A stretch of 64,000 bases of DNA from Dolichospermum flos-aquae CCAP 1403/13F. GTDB lineage: Bacteria; Cyanobacteriota; Cyanobacteriia; Cyanobacteriales; Nostocaceae. The notes beneath the pieces were generated by a model. That model was not told the origin of the DNA. It ran no database searches and saw nothing but the letters and a program-made list of their open reading frames with translations. The stretch covers positions 3,886,001 to 3,950,000 of the forward strand of contig NZ_CP051206.1 of NCBI RefSeq assembly GCF_012516395.1, in the 5' to 3' direction. The first letter of the stretch is position 1; each line of letters begins with the position of its first letter. The position numbers and the translations under genes were made by a program. Shown piece by piece: positions 13,731 to 31,494 of the stretch.

Positions 13731-15161
13731 TTGACACTCACCTGTCTAAAGACACGGGGATTCTACATTCACCGTCAAAACTTGCTCAACCAGGTTTACA
13801 CCAAGCAGAGTAGTGGTTTCAACTCCTGTAGCGTTAATTTGGGGATGCCCTCCCCTATTTTTTGCCAGATTTAGAATATTAACTGCGGCATTTGTATCTC
13901 TATGCAATTCGCATCCACAGCTACATTTATGGGTGCGAGTTGATAGAGATTTTTTGACAATTACGCCACAGCTAGAACACTTTTGAGAAGTATAATGTGG
14001 TGCTACAGCTATAGTAATTTTGTCAAATTTAACAGCAAAATATTCAATCCACTGCCTGAACAAATACCAACTAGCGTCACTAATTGATTTTGCTAAACAA
14101 TGATTTTTTACCATGTTTGAAACCCTTAAATCTTCATAGGCCACTAAGTCGTTAGACTTGCATACGTTACGCGCTATTTTCTTAGCGTGTTCAATCCGTT
14201 GCCTATTTACTTTTAAGTGTTTTTTTGCGTAAACTTTCCTAGCTTTTTTTCTACCGCTAGAACCTTTGACTTTTTTGTAAATCCGTCTTTGAGAATGTTT
14301 GATAGATTTTTCAGCCTTTCTCAAAAACTGAGGGTTGGGTTCATGATGTCCATTAGAATCGGTGTAAAACGACTCTATACCGACATCTAACCCGATTTCT
14401 TTACCTGTTTTTGGTTGAATATCTACAACATCAATGCCCACACAAAACTGAGCATAATATCCATCGGCACGACGGATTAAACGCACTCGTTTAATATCTT
14501 TAAGTTCGTAGGATTGAATATCCCATTTACCTAATAATTTGAGTTCACCAATCCCTTTTTTATCAGTAAAAGTAATCCGTCGCTTAGTTTTGTGTAATTT
14601 CCATCCTGATGTTTTATATTCAACAGAACGGCAATCTTTCTGAAACCGTGGATATCCTTTCTTTCCAGACTTTTTAGATTTACAGTGGTCACTGAGCCTT
14701 GCCGAAGTGTTGTCGTAAAACCTTGATATAGCAGACCATCCTCTTTCTGCGGCTGATTGTACTGCCATTGAGTTTAATTCAGCAGCAAAGGTAAAGTCTG
14801 AGCGTAGTTCTGTTGAATACTTGTTAAGAGCAAACTTGTCAATTTTGAGTTCCTGCGGGGCATCCATCCAATATCTTATCGCTTTGTTACGAATGAATTG
14901 GGTGGTACGAATTGCATCGTCTATGGCGTTGTATTGATCTTGTTTACCTTTAACTTTGTATTCTAGGACTAGCATTGATTTAACTTTGAACAATCAATTT
15001 GATTTGGTTTCAACCTGCATTTATTATACAATATATACAAAATGTCAGTGCAGGATAAATCCTGTAACTAGCCTTCATCCCGCAGCTGTTGCACAGGTGT
15101 GTCCTCCTGAGTCGGACACGCCTTCAAGGGTTTTCGGCATTCTCCTTATAAGTACCTGTGC
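13731..15161 (-). mobile_element. IS200/IS605-type element carrying only tnpB
   Basis: The proposed right end (13731-13760) includes the palindrome TGTCTAAAGACA next to the tnpB stop, as usual for IS605/IS1341 elements. The left end is inferred from a stem-loop at 15091-15161: an outer 8 bp inverted repeat (GCACAGGT/ACCTGTGC) and an inner 10 bp stem (AGGTGTGTCC/GGACACGCCT). No tnpA is present, so it needs a transposase supplied in trans. The exact cleavage points cannot be fixed by eye. The element lies inside the cobG-cobH-cobI-cobJ run. Confidence 0.65.
13746..14975 (-). CDS. tnpB: TnpB RNA-guided nuclease (IS200/IS605 OrfB)
   Basis: Transposon-encoded RuvC-type nuclease, the ancestor family of Cas12. 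Starting at MLVLEYKVKG (ATG 14975) it has about 409 residues. The RuvC triad appears complete: D197 in GLDVGIESF, E281 in VAYEDLRV, D360 in HRDTNAAVNIL. A four-Cys zinc knuckle (CSSC near 333, CSCGC near 351) lies between the last two. Upstream ATG (14993) adds six residues and is less typical. By analogy with ISDra2, the guide RNA would overlap the 3' end of the gene and extend past 13746. There are no frameshifts, so it looks functional. Confidence 0.93.
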   Translation of the reverse strand: MLVLEYKVKGKQDQYNAIDDAIRTTQFIRNKAIRYWMDAPQELKIDKFALNKYSTELRSDFTFAAELNSMAVQSAAERGWSAISRFYDNTSARLSDHCKSKKSGKKGYPRFQKDCRSVEYKTSGWKLHKTKRRITFTDKKGIGELKLLGKWDIQSYELKDIKRVRLIRRADGYYAQFCVGIDVVDIQPKTGKEIGLDVGIESFYTDSNGHHEPNPQFLRKAEKSIKHSQRRIYKKVKGSSGRKKARKVYAKKHLKVNRQRIEHAKKIARNVCKSNDLVAYEDLRVSNMVKNHCLAKSISDASWYLFRQWIEYFAVKFDKITIAVAPHYTSQKCSSCGVIVKKSLSTRTHKCSCGCELHRDTNAAVNILNLAKNRGGHPQINATGVETTTLLGVNLVEQVLTVNVESPCL

Positions 15162-25671: not shown

Positions 25672-25713
25672 TTTTTTGATATTATTATCATAGTAGAAAT
25701 GGAGTTTAAAAAC

Positions 25714-26031
25714 ATGACTCAACTAACACCAAAACAACCAGCAAGAAGAGGAAGAATTTTTCCGGAACTGACTTTATCACCGGAAGAATTGGCTAGACGT
25801 AAAGCTGAAAATGAGGCAGAGTATCAACGTTATCGAACAATTTTTGAGCGTGTACGTCCTGAATTGATCAAAGAACATTATGGCTGGTATATTGCTATTG
25901 AGTTAAATAGTGGTGATTACTTAATTGATCAAGATAAAGAAATTGCACATCAAAAAGCCCGCGATAAATACCCAAATGCTGATCATTGCGTTTTTTGTTT
26001 GAATGAATCTGGAGCAACTGGGAGAATATGA
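25714..26031 (+). CDS. hypothetical protein, module copy 1, partner of retropepsin-like protease
   Basis: About 105 residues from ATG 25714 (MTQLTPKQPARRGR), which has GGAG nine bases upstream; an ATG five codons earlier is less likely. It has a basic N-terminus, a helical charged stretch (SPEELARRKAENEAEYQR), then a short domain with HYGWYIAIELNSGDYLIDQD and HCVFCLNE. No known motif is recognised. The stop overlaps the protease start (ATGA-type, 4 bp), so the two are translated together. A diverged copy lies 720 bp downstream. The tight pairing suggests the two proteins act together or one controls the other; this is inference. Confidence 0.75.
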   Translation: MTQLTPKQPARRGRIFPELTLSPEELARRKAENEAEYQRYRTIFERVRPELIKEHYGWYIAIELNSGDYLIDQDKEIAHQKARDKYPNADHCVFCLNESGATGRI

Positions 26032-26390
26032 TAGAGGGTACATTTGGTGAAAAGAAGCAGCTATTTTTTGAAATTGAGTTGGTTGCTAATGATGGTTTAA
26101 TTTTGCCTGTAGATGCTTTATTTGATAGTGGTTTCACAGGCTTTATGGCTATTAATACACAAGATTTAGATGGACTTAATTGGGATTATGTAGATAAAGA
26201 AATTCTGCGAACTGCTCAGGGTGAAATCACATTTGAAAGATACTTAGGTAAGGTGATATTGGATAATCAAGAGTATGAAATTCCTGTTTATGCGGGAGAT
26301 GAATTAACGGAGATTTTATTGGGTTCAGAGTGGTTGGAGTTTTTGCCTTTGGTGGTGAATTTTCAAGCTGGTATTTTGACTTTGGGATGA
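26028..26390 (+). CDS. retropepsin-like (clan AA) aspartic protease, copy 1
   Basis: 120 residues. The active-site motif is D33-S-G in ALFDSGFTGFMAI, with the conserved hydrophobic strand ahead (LPVDALF), and a later ILLGSEWLEFLPLVV that fits the second hydrophobic-Gly part of a retropepsin fold. Single-domain aspartic proteases of this size work as homodimers. Small cyanobacterial proteins of this type are common but their substrates are unknown. Encoded with a 4 bp overlap after the small hypothetical protein. The last 38 residues are nearly identical to those of copy 2, whereas the middle is diverged. Confidence 0.8.
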   Translation: MIEGTFGEKKQLFFEIELVANDGLILPVDALFDSGFTGFMAINTQDLDGLNWDYVDKEILRTAQGEITFERYLGKVILDNQEYEIPVYAGDELTEILLGSEWLEFLPLVVNFQAGILTLG

Positions 26391-26433
26391 TTTTTTTGAT
26401 ATTATTATAATAGTAGAAATGGGGTTTAAAAAC

Positions 26434-26751
26434 ATGACTCAACTAACACCAAAGCAACCAGCAAGAAGAGGAAGAATTTTCCCAGAACTGACTTTATCAC
26501 CGGAAGAATTAGCTAGACGTGAAGCGGAAAGAGAAGCATTTCACAAACGTTGTCGGGCAATTTTTGAGCGTGTTCGTCCTGAGTTGATCAAAGAACATTA
26601 TAATTGTTATATTGCCGTAGAACCTGATAGTGGTGATTATTTTGTTGATCAAGATATAGAAGTTGCTAGTCAGCAAGCGCGAGAGAAACACCCTCATGCT
26701 GTACATTGTATGTTTCGGCTGAATGAAATTGGAGCAGTTGGGAGAATATGA
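26434..26751 (+). CDS. hypothetical protein, module copy 2
   Basis: Second copy of the small partner protein, about 105 residues from ATG 26434, with the same ribosome-site context (GGGG in place of GGAG). The first 35 residues are nearly identical to copy 1. Later parts differ (EREAFHKRCRAIFERVRPEL; HYNCYIAVEPDSGDYFVDQD). The pattern of conserved ends and diverged middle is what repeated gene conversion or selection for variation would give. Overlaps the following protease gene by 4 bp. Confidence 0.75.
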   Translation: MTQLTPKQPARRGRIFPELTLSPEELARREAEREAFHKRCRAIFERVRPELIKEHYNCYIAVEPDSGDYFVDQDIEVASQQAREKHPHAVHCMFRLNEIGAVGRI

Positions 26752-27110
26752 TAGAGGGTTATTTTGGTGATGGGGGACAGCTATTTTTTGAAATTGATTT
26801 GATTAATGCTGATGGTTTAAATTTACCTGTAGAGACCATGTTAGATACTGGCTTTACAGGTTTTCTAGCAATTAATAAACAAGATTTAGAAGCACTAAAT
26901 TGGCAGTTTATTCGTGAACAAGAATTGATCACAGCCCAAGGAGAAAAAGCTTTTGATTTATATTTAGGTAAAGTGATTTTGGATAATCAAGAGTATGAAA
27001 TTCCTGTTTATGCTGGAGATGAATTAACGGAAATTTTATTGGGTTCAGCGTGGTTGGAGTTTTTGCCTTTGGTGGTGAATTTTCCAGATGGTATTTTGAC
27101 TTTGGGATGA
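26748..27110 (+). CDS. retropepsin-like aspartic protease, copy 2
   Basis: Second copy of the small aspartic protease, 120 residues, with the canonical D33-T-G in TMLDTGFTGFLAI. Copy 1 has DSG, so both keep a usable active site. The C-terminal segment from VILDNQEYEIPVYAG onward matches copy 1 almost exactly. Differences cluster in residues 4-75, which would line the substrate-binding side; that reading is inference. Followed after 65 bp by an RHH antitoxin-like gene on the same strand. Confidence 0.8.
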   Translation: MIEGYFGDGGQLFFEIDLINADGLNLPVETMLDTGFTGFLAINKQDLEALNWQFIREQELITAQGEKAFDLYLGKVILDNQEYEIPVYAGDELTEILLGSAWLEFLPLVVNFPDGILTLG

Positions 27111-27174: not shown

Positions 27175-27435
27175 ATGCAATTGGAAATTCAGCTTGATGA
27201 TGACTGTGTTCAAAAACTTGCGTATATTCAGGAACAGACTAATCAAGATTTTAGTGAAGCTATTAAACAAGCTATTGAAAAATACTATAACCAAGTTCAA
27301 ACTAATAATAAACCGCCTTTAGCAATATTTAAAGAACTTGGTTTAGTCGGATGTTTTAATGGTGATTCTGATCTGTCTGTTACTTATAAAACAAAAATGG
27401 CTGATTATCTTCAGGATAAACAAGAAGTTAATTAA
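27175..27435 (+). CDS. VapB-type ribbon-helix-helix antitoxin, toxin partner absent
   Basis: 86 residues. The N-terminal half (MQLEIQLDDDCVQKLAYIQE, then SEAIKQAIEKYYNQ) fits a ribbon-helix-helix DNA-binding unit. The C-terminal half (IFKELGLVGCFNGDSDLSVT) is the toxin-binding tail seen in cyanobacterial VapB-like antitoxins. Normally a PIN toxin gene overlaps the 3' end; here the next gene is convergent and overlaps by 8 bp, and no PIN frame is seen. It may be an orphan antitoxin guarding against a toxin elsewhere. Confidence 0.7.
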   Translation: MQLEIQLDDDCVQKLAYIQEQTNQDFSEAIKQAIEKYYNQVQTNNKPPLAIFKELGLVGCFNGDSDLSVTYKTKMADYLQDKQEVN

Positions 27436-28831
27436 TTGGTAAGTCGCGTAGGTAGTAGAATTTATCTGTTTTCCAATCGTTTCCTTTTTCTCTTCCTAAG
27501 TAACCTGTTAATGGTGATGATAATTCTATTAATAAATCATGAGTTATTTCATTTGTCAAATTTTGCTTATTAATTGCGTTGTAATGAACACGAATTTCTG
27601 TAACTGTAACCTGTTGATGGGTGGTTTGTGAATTATCGTTATTTTGTTCAGAGAGTTCTTTGACAGTTTTGATAATCGCTGATCGCAATTTAATCTCTTT
27701 TTCTATTTTATCTATATATTCGTTAATTTTATCATCAATTTGTCCTGGTTCTAAGTATTGCTTTAATTCAATTAAGTTTATCGCACCTGGATATTTTGCT
27801 TTGAGTTCAACTAATTTTTGTAATGTCATAGCTTTGATAATACTGACTTTAGAGATTTGAGCAGATTCTTTCAAGTTTTTAGTAGGTTCACCAGGTCCAA
27901 TAATTAACCGCACAGCTTGAAGATAATTTTCTTGAAGATGTCTTTTACCAATTCTATCTAATTCTTCTACTGTGTTATGAGGAATGCTTTTACCTGCTTT
28001 ACATTCGCAAACTAGAGAATAAGGTTGTGAACAATATAAATCTAAACCTCCAGCACCACCTTTGTGATCTTCCTCTACTTTAAATCCTAAAAAATTAAGG
28101 CTTTTGCGTGTAACAATTTCAAAATTTGTACCTGCTTGATAGTTGCTTGTAGTATCATCTTTTTCTATGCTTCTATCTCCTAATGTTGTAATTGTTTTTA
28201 TCCAATCTAAATCAGAATCTATTGTATTTGTAGTTGGAGTAATGCACCAACCTAAAAATACTTTGATTTCATTGTCTAATTGTTGTGCTGCTGGGTTATT
28301 ATTGGCTATTTGTGATAACGCACTTTGTAACTCTTCCAGTTCAGGATTTAGAGAAGGTTCTCGTTTTTCTAATTGTTGTTTACGTTGAATAAATACCTGA
28401 TCACTTAATACGGGTTTATATTCAGATACAGAAATATTATTAGGTAAAGGTGCAAATTTTCCTAGTTTTTCTTGAATGTTGGGAATAGCTCGAATTTCCA
28501 AAGGTTCAGGTAAATGATAAACCCGCAAATAAGCCAGAAAAAAATGCGGACGGTTTTGTAATATTTCCTGAAATATTTCTGGTTTCCAGATTGTTAATTG
28601 AGATAACATATCTAAAGGAGTTGTTTGATCTAGAATTTCGCAAAGTTCACATTTAGCCCATGCTTTAATTGAAAGCATATTTACTGAAGTATCAACAGGA
28701 TAAAGAGCAAATTTATGCCCATGAGTAAGCAATTTACTAGGTATAGCAGCAATAATTCGCCCTTGTATTAAAGCTTCAACATCGGGAGGATATAAACATA
28801 AGGCGTTATAGATTGAAACAGATTTATTCAT
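27428..28831 (-). CDS. PD-(D/E)XK nuclease-domain protein of a wHTH-ATPase-nuclease operon
   Basis: 467 residues. The N-terminal 115 residues (YNALCLYPPDVEALIQGR... FLAYLRVYHLP) form a domain I remember from cyanobacterial proteins but cannot name. Residues 235-285 are a restriction-like nuclease core: E238 in GTNFEIVTRKSL, D264 in GGAGGLDLY, and E276-x-K278 in VCECKAGK. This is the pattern of PD-(D/E)XK enzymes that act on DNA. The C-terminus is helical, with a long charged stretch. It starts 6 bp after the ATPase gene, so the operon is tight. Likely role: effector nuclease controlled by the upstream ATPase (inference). Confidence 0.7.
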   Translation of the reverse strand: MNKSVSIYNALCLYPPDVEALIQGRIIAAIPSKLLTHGHKFALYPVDTSVNMLSIKAWAKCELCEILDQTTPLDMLSQLTIWKPEIFQEILQNRPHFFLAYLRVYHLPEPLEIRAIPNIQEKLGKFAPLPNNISVSEYKPVLSDQVFIQRKQQLEKREPSLNPELEELQSALSQIANNNPAAQQLDNEIKVFLGWCITPTTNTIDSDLDWIKTITTLGDRSIEKDDTTSNYQAGTNFEIVTRKSLNFLGFKVEEDHKGGAGGLDLYCSQPYSLVCECKAGKSIPHNTVEELDRIGKRHLQENYLQAVRLIIGPGEPTKNLKESAQISKVSIIKAMTLQKLVELKAKYPGAINLIELKQYLEPGQIDDKINEYIDKIEKEIKLRSAIIKTVKELSEQNNDNSQTTHQQVTVTEIRVHYNAINKQNLTNEITHDLLIELSSPLTGYLGREKGNDWKTDKFYYLRDLPIN

Positions 28832-28837
28832 AATTAA

Positions 28838-29911
28838 TTAACCAAATAAATCACTTAAATCATCGGTATCTTCTGTTTCATTGATATTTGAAGGAGTGAG
28901 AAATTTATCTATAATATCTTCATCATCAATATCAGGCATATTACCAGATGGATCACTTAAAATCTCTTTCAGTAACAGATTATCAAAGGTAATATTATTC
29001 TTAGAAATACAATCAAAAATTTGTTCTTCTGTTAATTGATAATTTTCTCGCTTTTGATAAATAGCGAATATTGCTATAAGTGGACGAATTTGATCTTCTA
29101 TTAAATCTACATTTTCTCCCCCTTTGTGTAAAATTAACTCATTAAGCAAACTATATGTTGCCGCTGTTTTTTTCATTTGTTTTATTTTGGAATGAGAACG
29201 CACTAAACAACCACGGGTTAAATCAAAAGTATGATAGTCATTTAACCGTTTTAAACACGCATTTAATGTAAATTGAGAATCTTGGACAACTGCTACACCA
29301 ATTTTTACCTCTTTACCATTTTCATTACCAATAATTTTGAAGTTGATAAAGTTGTTGTTCTTGGATTTAGGTAGAATATCTTTGGTAATTTCTTGAATCA
29401 TGACTTCTTCTAAAGTCTGTCCTTTTAAAGTATTAAAGCCAAAATATAGGGCTTCAGCTATGAGAGAACTATCCTCGATATATTTTTCAAATTTTACTTC
29501 ACTTTCCCTTATAAATGCTAATTCAAACCTTTCAAATGGATCAGCAGGGAGTTTCTCTTCTTCAACCTTAAAGTTATCAGCACACCATCGCAAAGCTTCT
29601 CTAACAGTTGGTTTATTTTTACCGTATTCTCTCAGATGACTTTCTTTAAATGGGTAAAGTGTATGTGGAGGAATTAAGTTTTTTGAACTATAATATTCTC
29701 GTAACCACACCGTTGCTAACTGTACCATATAATCAGCACTAACAGGTTTTAAATCTATTGGTTTTCGTTGTGTAAATTTGGAAATTCTATCAGGCGTACC
29801 ACCTTGAATGGAGTTTACTTTATCTCTCCATGTTTCTGGTAGCATTACCGTCAGAATAACTACACCTTGGCTAAGGTCTGAATTTTCCAAAGTATCATGG
29901 AGAATTTTCAC
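28838..29911 (-). CDS. AAA-type ATPase, C-terminal part (separated by frameshift)
   Basis: 357 residues from a GTG at 29911. It begins MKILHDTLENSDLSQGVVIL, which reads as the strand and helix right after a Walker B region, including VILTVMLPETWRDKV (sensor-1-like), not as a natural N-terminus. The frame is open further upstream (FPTESVIANF) to the point where the preceding ATPase frame ends. I therefore take this as the second part of one ATPase gene of about 640 residues. The C-terminal region is helical and ends in an acidic tail (ETEDTDDLSDLFG). Confidence 0.65.
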   Translation of the reverse strand: MKILHDTLENSDLSQGVVILTVMLPETWRDKVNSIQGGTPDRISKFTQRKPIDLKPVSADYMVQLATVWLREYYSSKNLIPPHTLYPFKESHLREYGKNKPTVREALRWCADNFKVEEEKLPADPFERFELAFIRESEVKFEKYIEDSSLIAEALYFGFNTLKGQTLEEVMIQEITKDILPKSKNNNFINFKIIGNENGKEVKIGVAVVQDSQFTLNACLKRLNDYHTFDLTRGCLVRSHSKIKQMKKTAATYSLLNELILHKGGENVDLIEDQIRPLIAIFAIYQKRENYQLTEEQIFDCISKNNITFDNLLLKEILSDPSGNMPDIDDEDIIDKFLTPSNINETEDTDDLSDLFG

Positions 29912-29922
29912 GAAATTAGCAA

Positions 29923-30777
29923 TTACACTTTCTGTTGGGAACCATCCTCAGTGGAGTTATTTTTAACATCTATTTCATCAAAACAAATAATAATCGAGTT
30001 GTAATAACCAACTAAATTCAAAATTTGTTGAATATTTTTAAGAGCCTCAGCTTCTCTATCTTGATTAGTTTTACTAGGATTGGGTAATCCCAATTCATCA
30101 GCATTTAATTGAGCTAATTCTTCACCAGATAGCCATTTAATTGCATAAGGGGCTTGGGTTTCTGAAAGTGTCCATAGAATAGCTCGAATAATATAGGGAT
30201 CTGCATCAGATTTATTTTTAATAATCTGTTTTTGCAGAGCATTCATGAGATTTTTATTTTTAGCTAAACTACTTTTATATGCCTGGTCAAATTTTTTGAC
30301 TAACTCTGCTGGAGTAGTAGCATTTTCTCTACCTTCGTTGGCCATAGCTGCGGCTACTTCTTGCCATTGCATGACTTCTTGGCTACCAGTCTTACTGAGA
30401 CTATCTGCTAAAGTTTGCTGAAATTGATACTTAACTAAATTTAAGTCTGTATAGTTATTACCACCTGCATAAACGAATAAAGCACCACCTACTTTTTCCA
30501 GTTCATGACGAATGCGACTCAAAAGATGGGTTTTACCAACTCCCTGCTGTGCAGTAATAGCAATTGAAGTTACTTTATCTTGACTAGATTGACTTTTGCG
30601 AACAAATTCAATGGCTTTAAAAACTTGATTAGAAGCATGGGCATTTAATGTGGGTACGTCGGGGACTCCTTTTCCCCAAACATCCTGTTCTTTAACAATC
30701 CCAGCGTTAATAAATGGATTGTGACTATTAATTGCAGCATTAACGGCTTCTATGGGAGAAATAGGGGTATCTGTCAT
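29923..30777 (-). CDS. AAA-type ATPase, N-terminal part (truncated by frameshift)
   Basis: 284 residues with a P-loop AQQGVGKTHLL at 76-86 and Walker B SIIICFDEID near 259-269. Soon after Walker B the frame ends (STEDGSQQKV). One extra base in the TTCCC run near 29938 would join it in frame to FPTESVIANFVKIL of the next frame. This indicates a single-base deletion, or a sequence error, splitting one P-loop ATPase gene. The protein resembles regulators that load or gate an effector; the family is not named. It lies 48 bp after the winged-helix gene. Confidence 0.7.
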   Translation of the reverse strand: MTDTPISPIEAVNAAINSHNPFINAGIVKEQDVWGKGVPDVPTLNAHASNQVFKAIEFVRKSQSSQDKVTSIAITAQQGVGKTHLLSRIRHELEKVGGALFVYAGGNNYTDLNLVKYQFQQTLADSLSKTGSQEVMQWQEVAAAMANEGRENATTPAELVKKFDQAYKSSLAKNKNLMNALQKQIIKNKSDADPYIIRAILWTLSETQAPYAIKWLSGEELAQLNADELGLPNPSKTNQDREAEALKNIQQILNLVGYYNSIIICFDEIDVKNNSTEDGSQQKV

Positions 30778-30825
30778 GGTGATTTCGTATGGTGCGAGGA
30801 ACTAGAAACTGCGGGGATAATTTGA

Positions 30826-31494
30826 TTAACTCAAGCGTTTAGCGTAAGAACGTAGTTGTGTACCAGGTATAGAAATTGAATCTTCCCGTTTATCAGAGGT
30901 AAAGTCTGGTATTTCTCCGGCAATTAGCTGCAAAATGTCATCAGCTTGCATTTCCACTAGCCATTGATTGAATTTTTCACGACTAACTTGTTCACCTATT
31001 TCTCTTCTAATGCGATAGATAGGTACTAAATCATCTAGGCTGTAGTCCCTGTTCAACTTGTCATAAATATCCAACGCGACAGACTTAAACTCCTCATAAG
31101 AACCAATCACCGCACCACCAGACGCAACCGGCGCAGCTACTACAACATCAACCTCACGAAACAATCGCAACAAAGAATTTCCTACCCAAGCACCAAGATT
31201 GGTATTAAACTCAAACTCATCACTACGCAAACCCGCTTTTAACACATCTAAGCCCGTCGGTGACGTGAGAGTATAACTGGTTGAAGATCCCTTTTTAGTA
31301 ACAGTAACAGCCCCCTGCATTTCTAAATCCTCTAAAATAGCTTGATAATCCGCTTTATTCTGACTCTTGGAGTCTATCCGCTTCGTCAATTTACCCCTAG
31401 CCACTTTCTGCTGACTTCCTCCCAAATCCCACAATGCAAGCAGTAAGCGAGTTTTAGCATATAAAGTCTGTAAATTCTTGGCTTGGGCGTTCAT
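30826..31494 (-). CDS. winged-helix protein, first gene of the wHTH-ATPase-nuclease operon
   Basis: 222 residues. Residues 10-85 look like a winged helix-turn-helix: LLLALWDLGG, LTKRIDSKSQNKADYQAILED, then a wing with VTVTKKGSSTSYTLT. A second small helical domain with a possible wing covers about 145-222 (VPIYRIRREIGEQVSREKFN ... DSISIPGTQLRSYAKRL). No catalytic residues are seen. As first gene of the operon it may be a DNA-sensing subunit or repressor. I have not linked it to a named defence family. Confidence 0.6.
   Translation of the reverse strand: MNAQAKNLQTLYAKTRLLLALWDLGGSQQKVARGKLTKRIDSKSQNKADYQAILEDLEMQGAVTVTKKGSSTSYTLTSPTGLDVLKAGLRSDEFEFNTNLGAWVGNSLLRLFREVDVVVAAPVASGGAVIGSYEEFKSVALDIYDKLNRDYSLDDLVPIYRIRREIGEQVSREKFNQWLVEMQADDILQLIAGEIPDFTSDKREDSISIPGTQLRSYAKRLS

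Follow-up and report, generated by a model that had tools for sequence, protein, structure and literature searches.

A putative winged-helix, AAA+ ATPase and ASCH-nuclease cassette with a preferred chromosomal site in many Nostoc-type cyanobacteria is a probable anti-invader system

A cassette of three genes, encoding a small protein (WH), an ATPase and a nuclease (NUC), lies on the minus strand at positions 31494-27428 of the window, i.e., the whole 64,000-nucleotide stretch of DNA analyzed. As described in the initial annotation, it is read here in four frames separated by gaps of 48, 11 and 6 bp; frames, coordinates and gaps were all confirmed, with ORFs called in our scripts by a simple longest-first rule. 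The first gene, WH (30826..31494, minus strand), encodes 222 amino acids (aa), for which no credible Pfam, NCBIfam or PADLOC model match was found, Pfam assigning no family to the window protein. Likewise, its profile retrieved nothing credible among solved structures, and the matches of 48 relatives to Pfam were all weak (best winged-helix match 0.015, in 3/48). The winged-helix label of the initial annotation is therefore tentative, and WH is regarded as a putative DNA-binding protein and partner of the ATPase. Its N-terminal part (residues 1-125, 31120..31494) is decoupled from the ATPase alleles, and its C-terminal part (residues 150-222, 30826..31047) is exchanged jointly with the ATPase.

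The ATPase consists of a 5' piece with the AAA+ core (29923..30777, minus strand) and a 3' piece with the remaining AAA+ region and a C-terminal alpha/beta domain (28838..29911, minus strand), which is out of frame here and part of the same gene in relatives. Both the Walker A (AQQGVGKTH, 30526-30552) and Walker B (ICFDEID, 29968-29988) motifs were verified, and both fall within the frame 30777-29923. The gene had initially been described as an ATPase in two frames; two frames are indeed present in the window, but they reflect a one-base lesion or an assembly error and not a design. In relatives, the gene is a single ORF of about 640 aa. Compared with the 92%-identical copy at locus L003, a one-base length difference near codon 278 splits the window frame, while two further length differences are each a multiple of three and keep the frame. 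As relatives have one frame and the difference from L003 is one base, a programmed frameshift was rejected. Judged from this alignment, the window ATPase carries a one-base break or assembly error, and the window copy of the cassette is probably inactive because of the broken frame. Among 51 related ATPases, Walker A residue K82 was conserved in all and G81 in 50, and position 83 was S or T throughout. Structural modeling predicts an ORC/Cdc6/TnsC/BrxC-like AAA+ ATPase, while single-sequence and profile searches against solved structures gave nothing credible. Residues 430-607 are modeled in an alpha-beta-beta-beta-alpha-beta order and have no conserved ExK; VIA, which barely covered this C-terminal domain, listed no REase match for it. 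An inactive REase domain following the AAA+ core is stated for HerA-linked ATPases in the available excerpts of PMC10853773.

The third gene, NUC (27428..28831, minus strand), encodes 467 aa. According to the structural model, it combines an ASCH/PUA-like domain (Pfam DUF1802; residues 1-135, 28427..28831), a PD-(D/E)XK domain (residues 203-377, 27701..28225) and a winged helix resembling that of ORC/Cdc6 (residues 380-467, 27431..27694). The closest structural matches of the predicted nuclease fold were the DNA-cutting FokI and Nt.BspD6I. The GGLD and ECK motifs are present in this frame, and both model and motif bear out the proposed PD-(D/E)XK nuclease: across 52 nucleases, the window copy included, E276, C277 and K278 (27998-28006) were each invariant and D264 (28040-28042) was conserved in 51. 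In these alignments, conservation of the ATPase Walker and nuclease motifs is greater than expected by chance. Single-sequence and profile searches of NUC against solved structures retrieved nothing credible.

The three genes were conserved together, adjacent and on the same strand, in 53 of 58 loci, with no further ORF of at least 60 aa between them in these 53. Four of the five remaining loci (L009, L031, L044 and L050) are truncated where the contig stops, and the fifth (L059) retains only the NUC tail. In a hand count of a phylum sample of 386 genomes, NUC was found in 54 (E <= 1e-30), the ATPase in 56 (E <= 1e-20) and both in 53. Three orphan ATPase homologs (L242, L243 and L244) have neither WH nor NUC nearby, which speaks against a strict three-gene unit. 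Overall, folds, motifs and conserved co-occurrence support the earlier proposal of a three-gene, defense-type module.

Two neighbors that had been noted alongside, an antitoxin-like (ribbon-helix-helix) gene and a duplicated protease pair, are not parts of the cassette. The protease pair is a frequent neighbor (22-25 of 58 loci). The protease-like protein has nine matches in the window genome, five of them near full length; of these five, three lie at a distance from the cassette, so the protein is not cassette specific. As a control, 50 window ORFs outside the cassette (at least 120 aa and below 1500 aa) were compared with PADLOC at 1e-20. Three matched, one TnpB-type gene (Cas12f/Cas12u/Csx1) and two further members (mad3), which we suppose to be two ABC-transporter genes; none of the three was judged to be a defense gene.

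In many Nostoc-type cyanobacteria, the cassette occupies a preferred position in the chromosome, between pgi and mdh. Matches to pgi were found in 211 of 217 genomes of the family, and the pgi places were ordered by similarity to that of L017. About every second of the first 119 of approximately 150 places, among the matches listed, was surveyed, giving 60 loci that were not chosen by WH state and favor genomes with a pgi most like that of L017. Five entries (contig ends or regions already in hand) were swapped for neighboring ones, and the survey overlaps with our other comparisons (e.g., genomes G481, G471, G399, G024 and G282). Of these 60 loci, 42 included the mdh side, and 13 with neither the mdh side nor a cassette were uninformative on the interval. 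The 42 intervals held the cassette (35), another defense-type module (4), remnants (2) or nothing (1). A cassette was scored as complete by tblastn coverage; the ATPase of L178 carries an insertion of about 1 kb, and that of L192 is split. The four replacement modules were RT plus SLFN_AlbA-TPR (one), PDC-S28 (two) and NACHT (one), named by PADLOC or Pfam matches or by homology, PDC-S28 itself being only a candidate. Over all regions read, defense-type modules occurred at the pgi-mdh site or beside cassette remnants in 11 genomes; the genomes outside the survey included sets picked for a partial or absent WH or, for 3 of 22 in one set, for extra copies. At loci occupied by other systems, part of the WH N-terminal region has persisted, and the final ~32 residues of NUC survive as a remnant in some genomes. 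No Rfam family was found in L141, L154, L156 or L171 at the gathering threshold.

WH was matched in 184 of 217 same-family genomes (E <= 0.001, partial and weak matches counted), often at one site, and its rank correlation with pgi was 0.84 (435 pairs; L040 and L047, with more than one copy, and loci without a full-length protein were left out here and in the block correlations below). A near-core cassette is unusual for a defense system and counts against the defense reading. Together with the ORC/Cdc6 likeness, these observations would fit a lineage-core module for chromosome maintenance or repair in heterocystous cyanobacteria with no role in immunity. We consider this quite improbable: of the 48 species pairs that share at least 97% identity in pgi, 17 carry ATPases less than 50% identical at the same site, lesions and remnants of the cassette were seen, and other defense-type modules occupied the 4 intervals described above.

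The allelic differences are arranged in blocks. Across 28 pgi-linked cassettes, partial correlations given pgi were 0.87 between the WH C-terminal part and the ATPase, 0.72 between that part and ASCH, and 0.64 between the ATPase and ASCH (Mantel p 0.0005 each, the minimum attainable with 2000 permutations). The corresponding value for the nuclease domain and the ATPase was -0.07 (28 cassettes). The WH N-terminal part correlated at 0.18 with the ATPase (p 0.07) and weakly with the NUC tail (0.24, p 0.038). Nuclease and ATPase classes were defined as single-linkage groups at 60% and 55% identity, respectively. The recognition block (WH C-terminal part, ATPase and ASCH) and the nuclease domain thus vary independently, although co-variation within the former may arise simply because its parts lie next to each other in a single recombination tract. 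DNA-level identity along the cassette drops and then recovers, with exchange borders inside genes, and the breakpoint in NUC varies in position, sometimes lying within ASCH.

These borders also argue against a site-targeting mobile-element module, in which a TnsC-like ATPase and a nuclease would act without an immune role. No transposase or integrase was found when seven recurrent neighbor clusters were scanned with Pfam, the three genes are not interrupted by any other in the locus maps, and NUC had no match among 72,556 plasmid and 50,697 phage records; none was confirmed in viral contigs by a pattern-limited search. The L003 ATPase matched one plasmid record (21.7% identity, E 4e-4) and no phage record. 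The lack of NUC matches in these records also weighs against the defense reading. We rate this explanation as the least probable of those considered.

A defense role is strongly inferred from what was computed directly, namely co-occurrence, catalytic motifs, predicted folds, the preferred site, block exchange and replacement by defense-type modules, and the cassette is probably an anti-invader restriction system. In the proposed order of events, WH would serve as the DNA-binding partner of the ORC/Cdc6-like AAA+ protein, which would assemble on or around invading DNA in the manner of initiator and TnsC-type ATPases. Through its ASCH domain, NUC would sense some property of the invading DNA, most likely base modification, and the operon could accordingly do without a methyltransferase. 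ATP-dependent assembly could then activate and pair the FokI-like nuclease domains, leading to cutting. The cassette ends (WH N-terminal part and NUC tail) may serve as homology arms, through which recognition blocks and nuclease alleles would be swapped between strains at one site by homologous recombination; such exchange is expected in an arms race.

Alternatively, an infection-activated nuclease could cut host DNA or RNA in abortive defense, with ASCH reading a nucleotide or RNA signal. The predicted fold of the ATPase core is also similar to those of RdrA, Avs3 and plant NLR proteins, NUC is weakly similar to CARF-PDDEXK in PADLOC (9/52 members, best 1.3e-5), and PUA/ASCH-superfamily domains are often RNA binding, according to the excerpt of PMC7641849. 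However, the FokI/BspD6I matches and the ORC-type winged helix of NUC point to DNA, and as there is no fourth gene between the three, no messenger synthase is encoded there. Abortive defense is a less likely candidate than restriction of invading DNA. The reading of modified bases by ASCH is itself unsettled, as PMC11037411 calls its role as a 6mA reader unconfirmed, citing YqfB, an ASCH hydrolase, while PMC12839542 treats ASCH/PUA domains as known modified-base readers.

We give about even chances to a further proposal, a shuffling immune locus in which constant ends at one chromosomal site frame either a recognition slot (WH C-terminal part, ATPase and ASCH) and an effector slot (nuclease domain), each replaced on its own by homologous recombination, or an unrelated immune system, e.g., a Bunzi-like pair. 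If so, the locus would be maintained at the level of the population and not moved by mobile elements, a bacterial equivalent of allelic immune loci. Among the papers listed in our literature searches, none reported the preferred site or two-block exchange. The cassette offers a testable immune locus in nitrogen-fixing filamentous cyanobacteria, and natural chimeras already part recognition from cutting. If the restriction reading is correct, exchanging blocks between strains should transfer the phage range as well and help to reveal what ASCH reads in DNA, on which PMC11037411 and PMC12839542 disagree.

Among known systems, the cassette is not fitted by any model of PADLOC 2023 or NCBIfam 2026, which gave weak matches only. 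In line with the initial annotation, membership in Gabija, Septu, Zorya, Wadjet and Lamassu was rejected, as their PADLOC models matched none of 51 ATPases and 52 NUC proteins (E <= 0.001) or 48 WH members (0.01). The best PADLOC match of the 51 ATPases was 2e-4 (PD-Lambda-2_C in three, PDC-S20 in two, mad8 and IetA in one each), and the ATPase 5' piece matched PtuA weakly (0.018). BREX membership was rejected, since no PglZ, methyltransferase, BrxX/PglX or BrxL lies between or is fused to the three genes; BREX models were absent from the PADLOC matches of the cassette proteins, and the ATPase, at about 640 aa, has half the length stated for BrxC (1200-1300). Type IV restriction systems, McrBC included, combine an AAA+ protein, a PD-(D/E)XK nuclease and a PUA-superfamily reader with no methyltransferase in the operon, a composition that the cassette shares. 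In contrast to McrBC, its ATPase is ORC/Cdc6-like and its reader sits on the nuclease instead of the AAA+ protein. McrBC membership was rejected, as no model of the McrB-type GTPase or the McrC nuclease was among the Pfam, NCBIfam and PADLOC matches.

The phosphorothioate systems Ssp and Dnd (SspC, SspB, DndG) share an ORC/Cdc6 ATPase and a wHTH protein with the cassette, as far as described in the excerpts of PMC10853773; unlike them, the cassette has no other gene between the three and no PADLOC Ssp/Dnd match. The same paper (Nucleic Acids Res 2024), in which the main text does not contain the word cyanobacteria, devotes one sentence of the available excerpts to a predicted counter-invader operon of Orc/CDC6, REase-ASCH and a DndG-like triple wHTH protein. 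The combination had thus already been mentioned, and the cassette cannot be called undescribed, as it initially was; this earlier prediction counts in favor of the defense reading. Its operon contains the Orc/Cdc6-family AAA+ ATPase and the REase-ASCH fusion (ASCH-like 1-135 and FokI-like 203-377 in one predicted protein), along with a separate putative DNA-binding protein. Relative to that operon as excerpted, the cassette additionally has a preferred site, two independently varying blocks and a predicted ORC-type winged helix at the C terminus of NUC.

Genes for WH (the putative DNA-binding protein), the ORC/Cdc6-like ATPase and NUC (the predicted nuclease) are kept together in cyanobacteria. 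A NUC query against genome_contigs gave 58 loci with cyanobacterial titles, and the three ORFs lie side by side on the same strand in 53 of them; four of the others end at contig ends (L009, L031, L044 and L050), and one (L059) holds the NUC tail only. Among 386 genomes drawn evenly from the phylum, NUC was matched in 61 at E ≤ 0.001, several being short tails only, and the ATPase in 62 at 1e-10, some weakly. At strict thresholds (E ≤ 1e-30 for NUC, E ≤ 1e-20 for ATPase) the counts were 54 and 56, and a hand count found both genes in 53 genomes, compared to about 8 expected under independence with kinship ignored. NUC then occurred without ATPase in G151 alone, where it lies at a contig end, and ATPase without NUC in G066, G131 and G296. 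Orphan ATPase homologs, with neither WH nor NUC close by, were seen at L242:5285-7195, L243 and L244; in that of L242 the Walker B glutamate is substituted (DRLD), and a von Willebrand-type protein follows, as judged by eye. Two cassettes lie near each other in L047, L143 and L144, and about 0.43 Mb apart in genome G547 (L145/L146), where the NUC match is interrupted in one.

The cassette has a preferred chromosomal site. Among the neighbors of the 58 loci, glucose-6-phosphate isomerase (pgi) was found in 31, lactate/malate dehydrogenase (mdh) in 22 and both in 17. WH was matched in 184 of 217 genomes, partial and weak matches included, of a family taken from its named loci to be Nostocaceae. 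When 60 pgi loci were surveyed irrespective of cassette presence, the mdh side was present in 42, and 35 of these held the cassette. The rest contained a reverse transcriptase (RT) with an SLFN_AlbA-TPR protein (1), a PDC-S28 helicase protein (2), a NACHT protein (1), remnants only (2) or nothing (1). Cassettes without the mdh side were found in 5 of the 60 loci, 2 of them cut by contig ends, and 13 were uninformative on interval content.

In the window, the cassette occupies 31494-27428 on the minus strand, with WH (222 aa) at the upstream end (31494), ATPase pieces at 30777-29923 (5′) and 29911-28838 (3′), and NUC (467 aa) at the downstream end (27428); the gaps of 48, 11 and 6 bp between these four frames were confirmed. 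The two-frame ATPase of the initial annotation holds for the window but not for relatives, in which it is a single ORF of mostly ~600 to 670 aa. Relative to the 92%-identical L003 copy, one base is missing near codon 278, and two further length differences amount to 18 and 3 bases; the window gene is therefore either broken or misassembled near that codon. In this genome pgi maps to 0.86 Mb, against 3.91 Mb for the cassette, and cassette sequence was absent from the 12.7 kb read beside pgi; therefore, the window copy is off the usual site.

Other defense-type modules occupy this site or lie beside cassette remnants in 11 genomes, drawn from a set picked mainly for partial or absent WH. In G243, a WH fragment is followed by a 433-aa protein matching BnzB of Bunzi (PADLOC, 9.8e-62) and a 335-aa protein matching PDC-M09A (3.4e-10), the latter with a glycine-rich stretch that seems, by eye, to span the membrane. 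Homologs of this pair are likewise placed in G022 and G125; the last 32 NUC residues come after it in G243 and G022, and no NUC tail was detected after that of G125. G022 also carries a cassette beside its pgi, the pair lying elsewhere in the genome. At L096:3130-5865, L097 and L132, the Bunzi-like pair is preceded by a 101- to 102-aa ORF starting with approximately the first 93 WH residues, perhaps a retained regulator or perhaps a recombination scar; the last 32 NUC residues lie downstream of the pair in L096 and L097. A retron-type RT with SLFN_AlbA-TPR was found in G481 and G460 (PADLOC/Pfam) and G465 (ORFs, by eye); at L141, L154 and L156, PADLOC gave no convincing model for the RT partner and Rfam no RNA at the gathering threshold. 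PDC-S28 was found in G471 (2.8e-281) and, by homology, in G515, an OLD/GajA-like ATPase behind a WH fragment in G399 (pgi >20 kb away on its contig), and NACHT proteins in G101 (Pfam; no PADLOC match) and G520 (homology). For comparison, 50 other window genes were run against PADLOC at 1e-20; hits were obtained for 3 of them, and none was convincing. The window also contains a TnpB/Cas12f-type gene at 13749-14993 (PADLOC Cas12f, 2.7e-98). In the duplicated protease module noted beside the cassette (25699-27110), proteins of 110 and 120 aa form a pair that is present twice in tandem; the 120-aa protein resembles clan-AA aspartic proteases by eye, with no Pfam hit. Of the 58 cassette loci, 22 to 25 have this pair as well, and it accompanies several of the replacements; the 120-aa protein has 9 matches within the window genome.

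Sequence variation along 28 complete pgi-linked cassettes (378 pairs) indicates an exchange of two blocks. Median identity was 0.87 for pgi, 0.70 for WH, 0.60 for NUC and 0.52 for ATPase. Where pgi identity was 97% or more (48 pairs), ATPase identity fell below 50% in 17 pairs (14 loci) and was at least 70% in 23. Loci L002 and L007 share 99% identity in pgi and 39% in ATPase; around the latter, the WH N-part reaches 92 to 100% and central NUC 80 to 100%, with the NUC end lower again. When pgi was used as the covariate, three segments varied jointly, namely the ATPase, residues 150-222 of WH and residues 1-140 of NUC (0.64 to 0.87; Mantel p 0.0005); the nuclease domain (NUC residues 200-375) is independent of every other segment (−0.10 to 0.03), and WH residues 1-125 are weakly tied to other segments (up to 0.24). 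Of the 47 complete loci, 34 belong to one nuclease-domain class and 13 to another, and both classes occur with each of the three largest ATPase classes. At the DNA level, identity in five ATPase-swap pairs falls within the WH gene, mostly at codons 130 to 200, and returns at varied points over approximately the first 170 NUC codons; in two nuclease-swap pairs it falls around NUC codons 190 to 200, close to where the nuclease domain begins, and is back around codons 420 to 430, inside the winged helix of NUC. As the WH C-terminal part, ATPase and ASCH segment are adjacent, their joint inheritance could be linkage alone.

We infer that the cassette is an anti-invader nuclease system; it is real and conserved, and very probably immune. 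The ORC-like ATPase and WH would assemble on DNA, ASCH would read a mark on it and the FokI-like domains of NUC would cut. No extra gene lies between the three; therefore, the cassette contains no methyltransferase, flanking genes being only partly annotated. This absence is compatible with a mark-dependent (type IV-like) scheme, without proving it. Published views of ASCH differ: ASCH/PUA domains are known modified-base readers according to PMC12839542, and PMC11037411 describes ASCH as an unconfirmed 6mA reader.

Pfam places DUF1802 on NUC (7.7e-25) and a KAP P-loop match, passing the cut-off, on the ATPase 5′ piece (7.5e-6), and gives no family for WH. Neither PADLOC 2023 nor NCBIfam 2026 has a model fitting the cassette proteins, in agreement with the earlier view that the cassette does not match Gabija, Septu, Zorya, Wadjet, BREX or Lamassu. 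An ATPase piece resembles the Sll1717 ATPase family (1.2e-7) and anti-phage protein DS41 (3.6e-6) in NCBIfam, both far under the cut-off, and PADLOC matches to PD-Lambda-2_C, PDC-S20, mad8 and IetA are weak, each in 1 to 3 of 51 ATPases (best, 2e-4). The system can no longer be called undescribed, as PMC10853773 already predicts in outline a gene combination taken to be the same; a term look-up in PMC12507012 and PMC13092281 gave nothing relevant. Among the papers listed by the literature searches, none describes, in its title or the start of its abstract, the site between mdh and pgi or an exchange of two blocks. What is new here relative to the predicted combination is the preferred site, together with recognition and nuclease blocks that vary independently.
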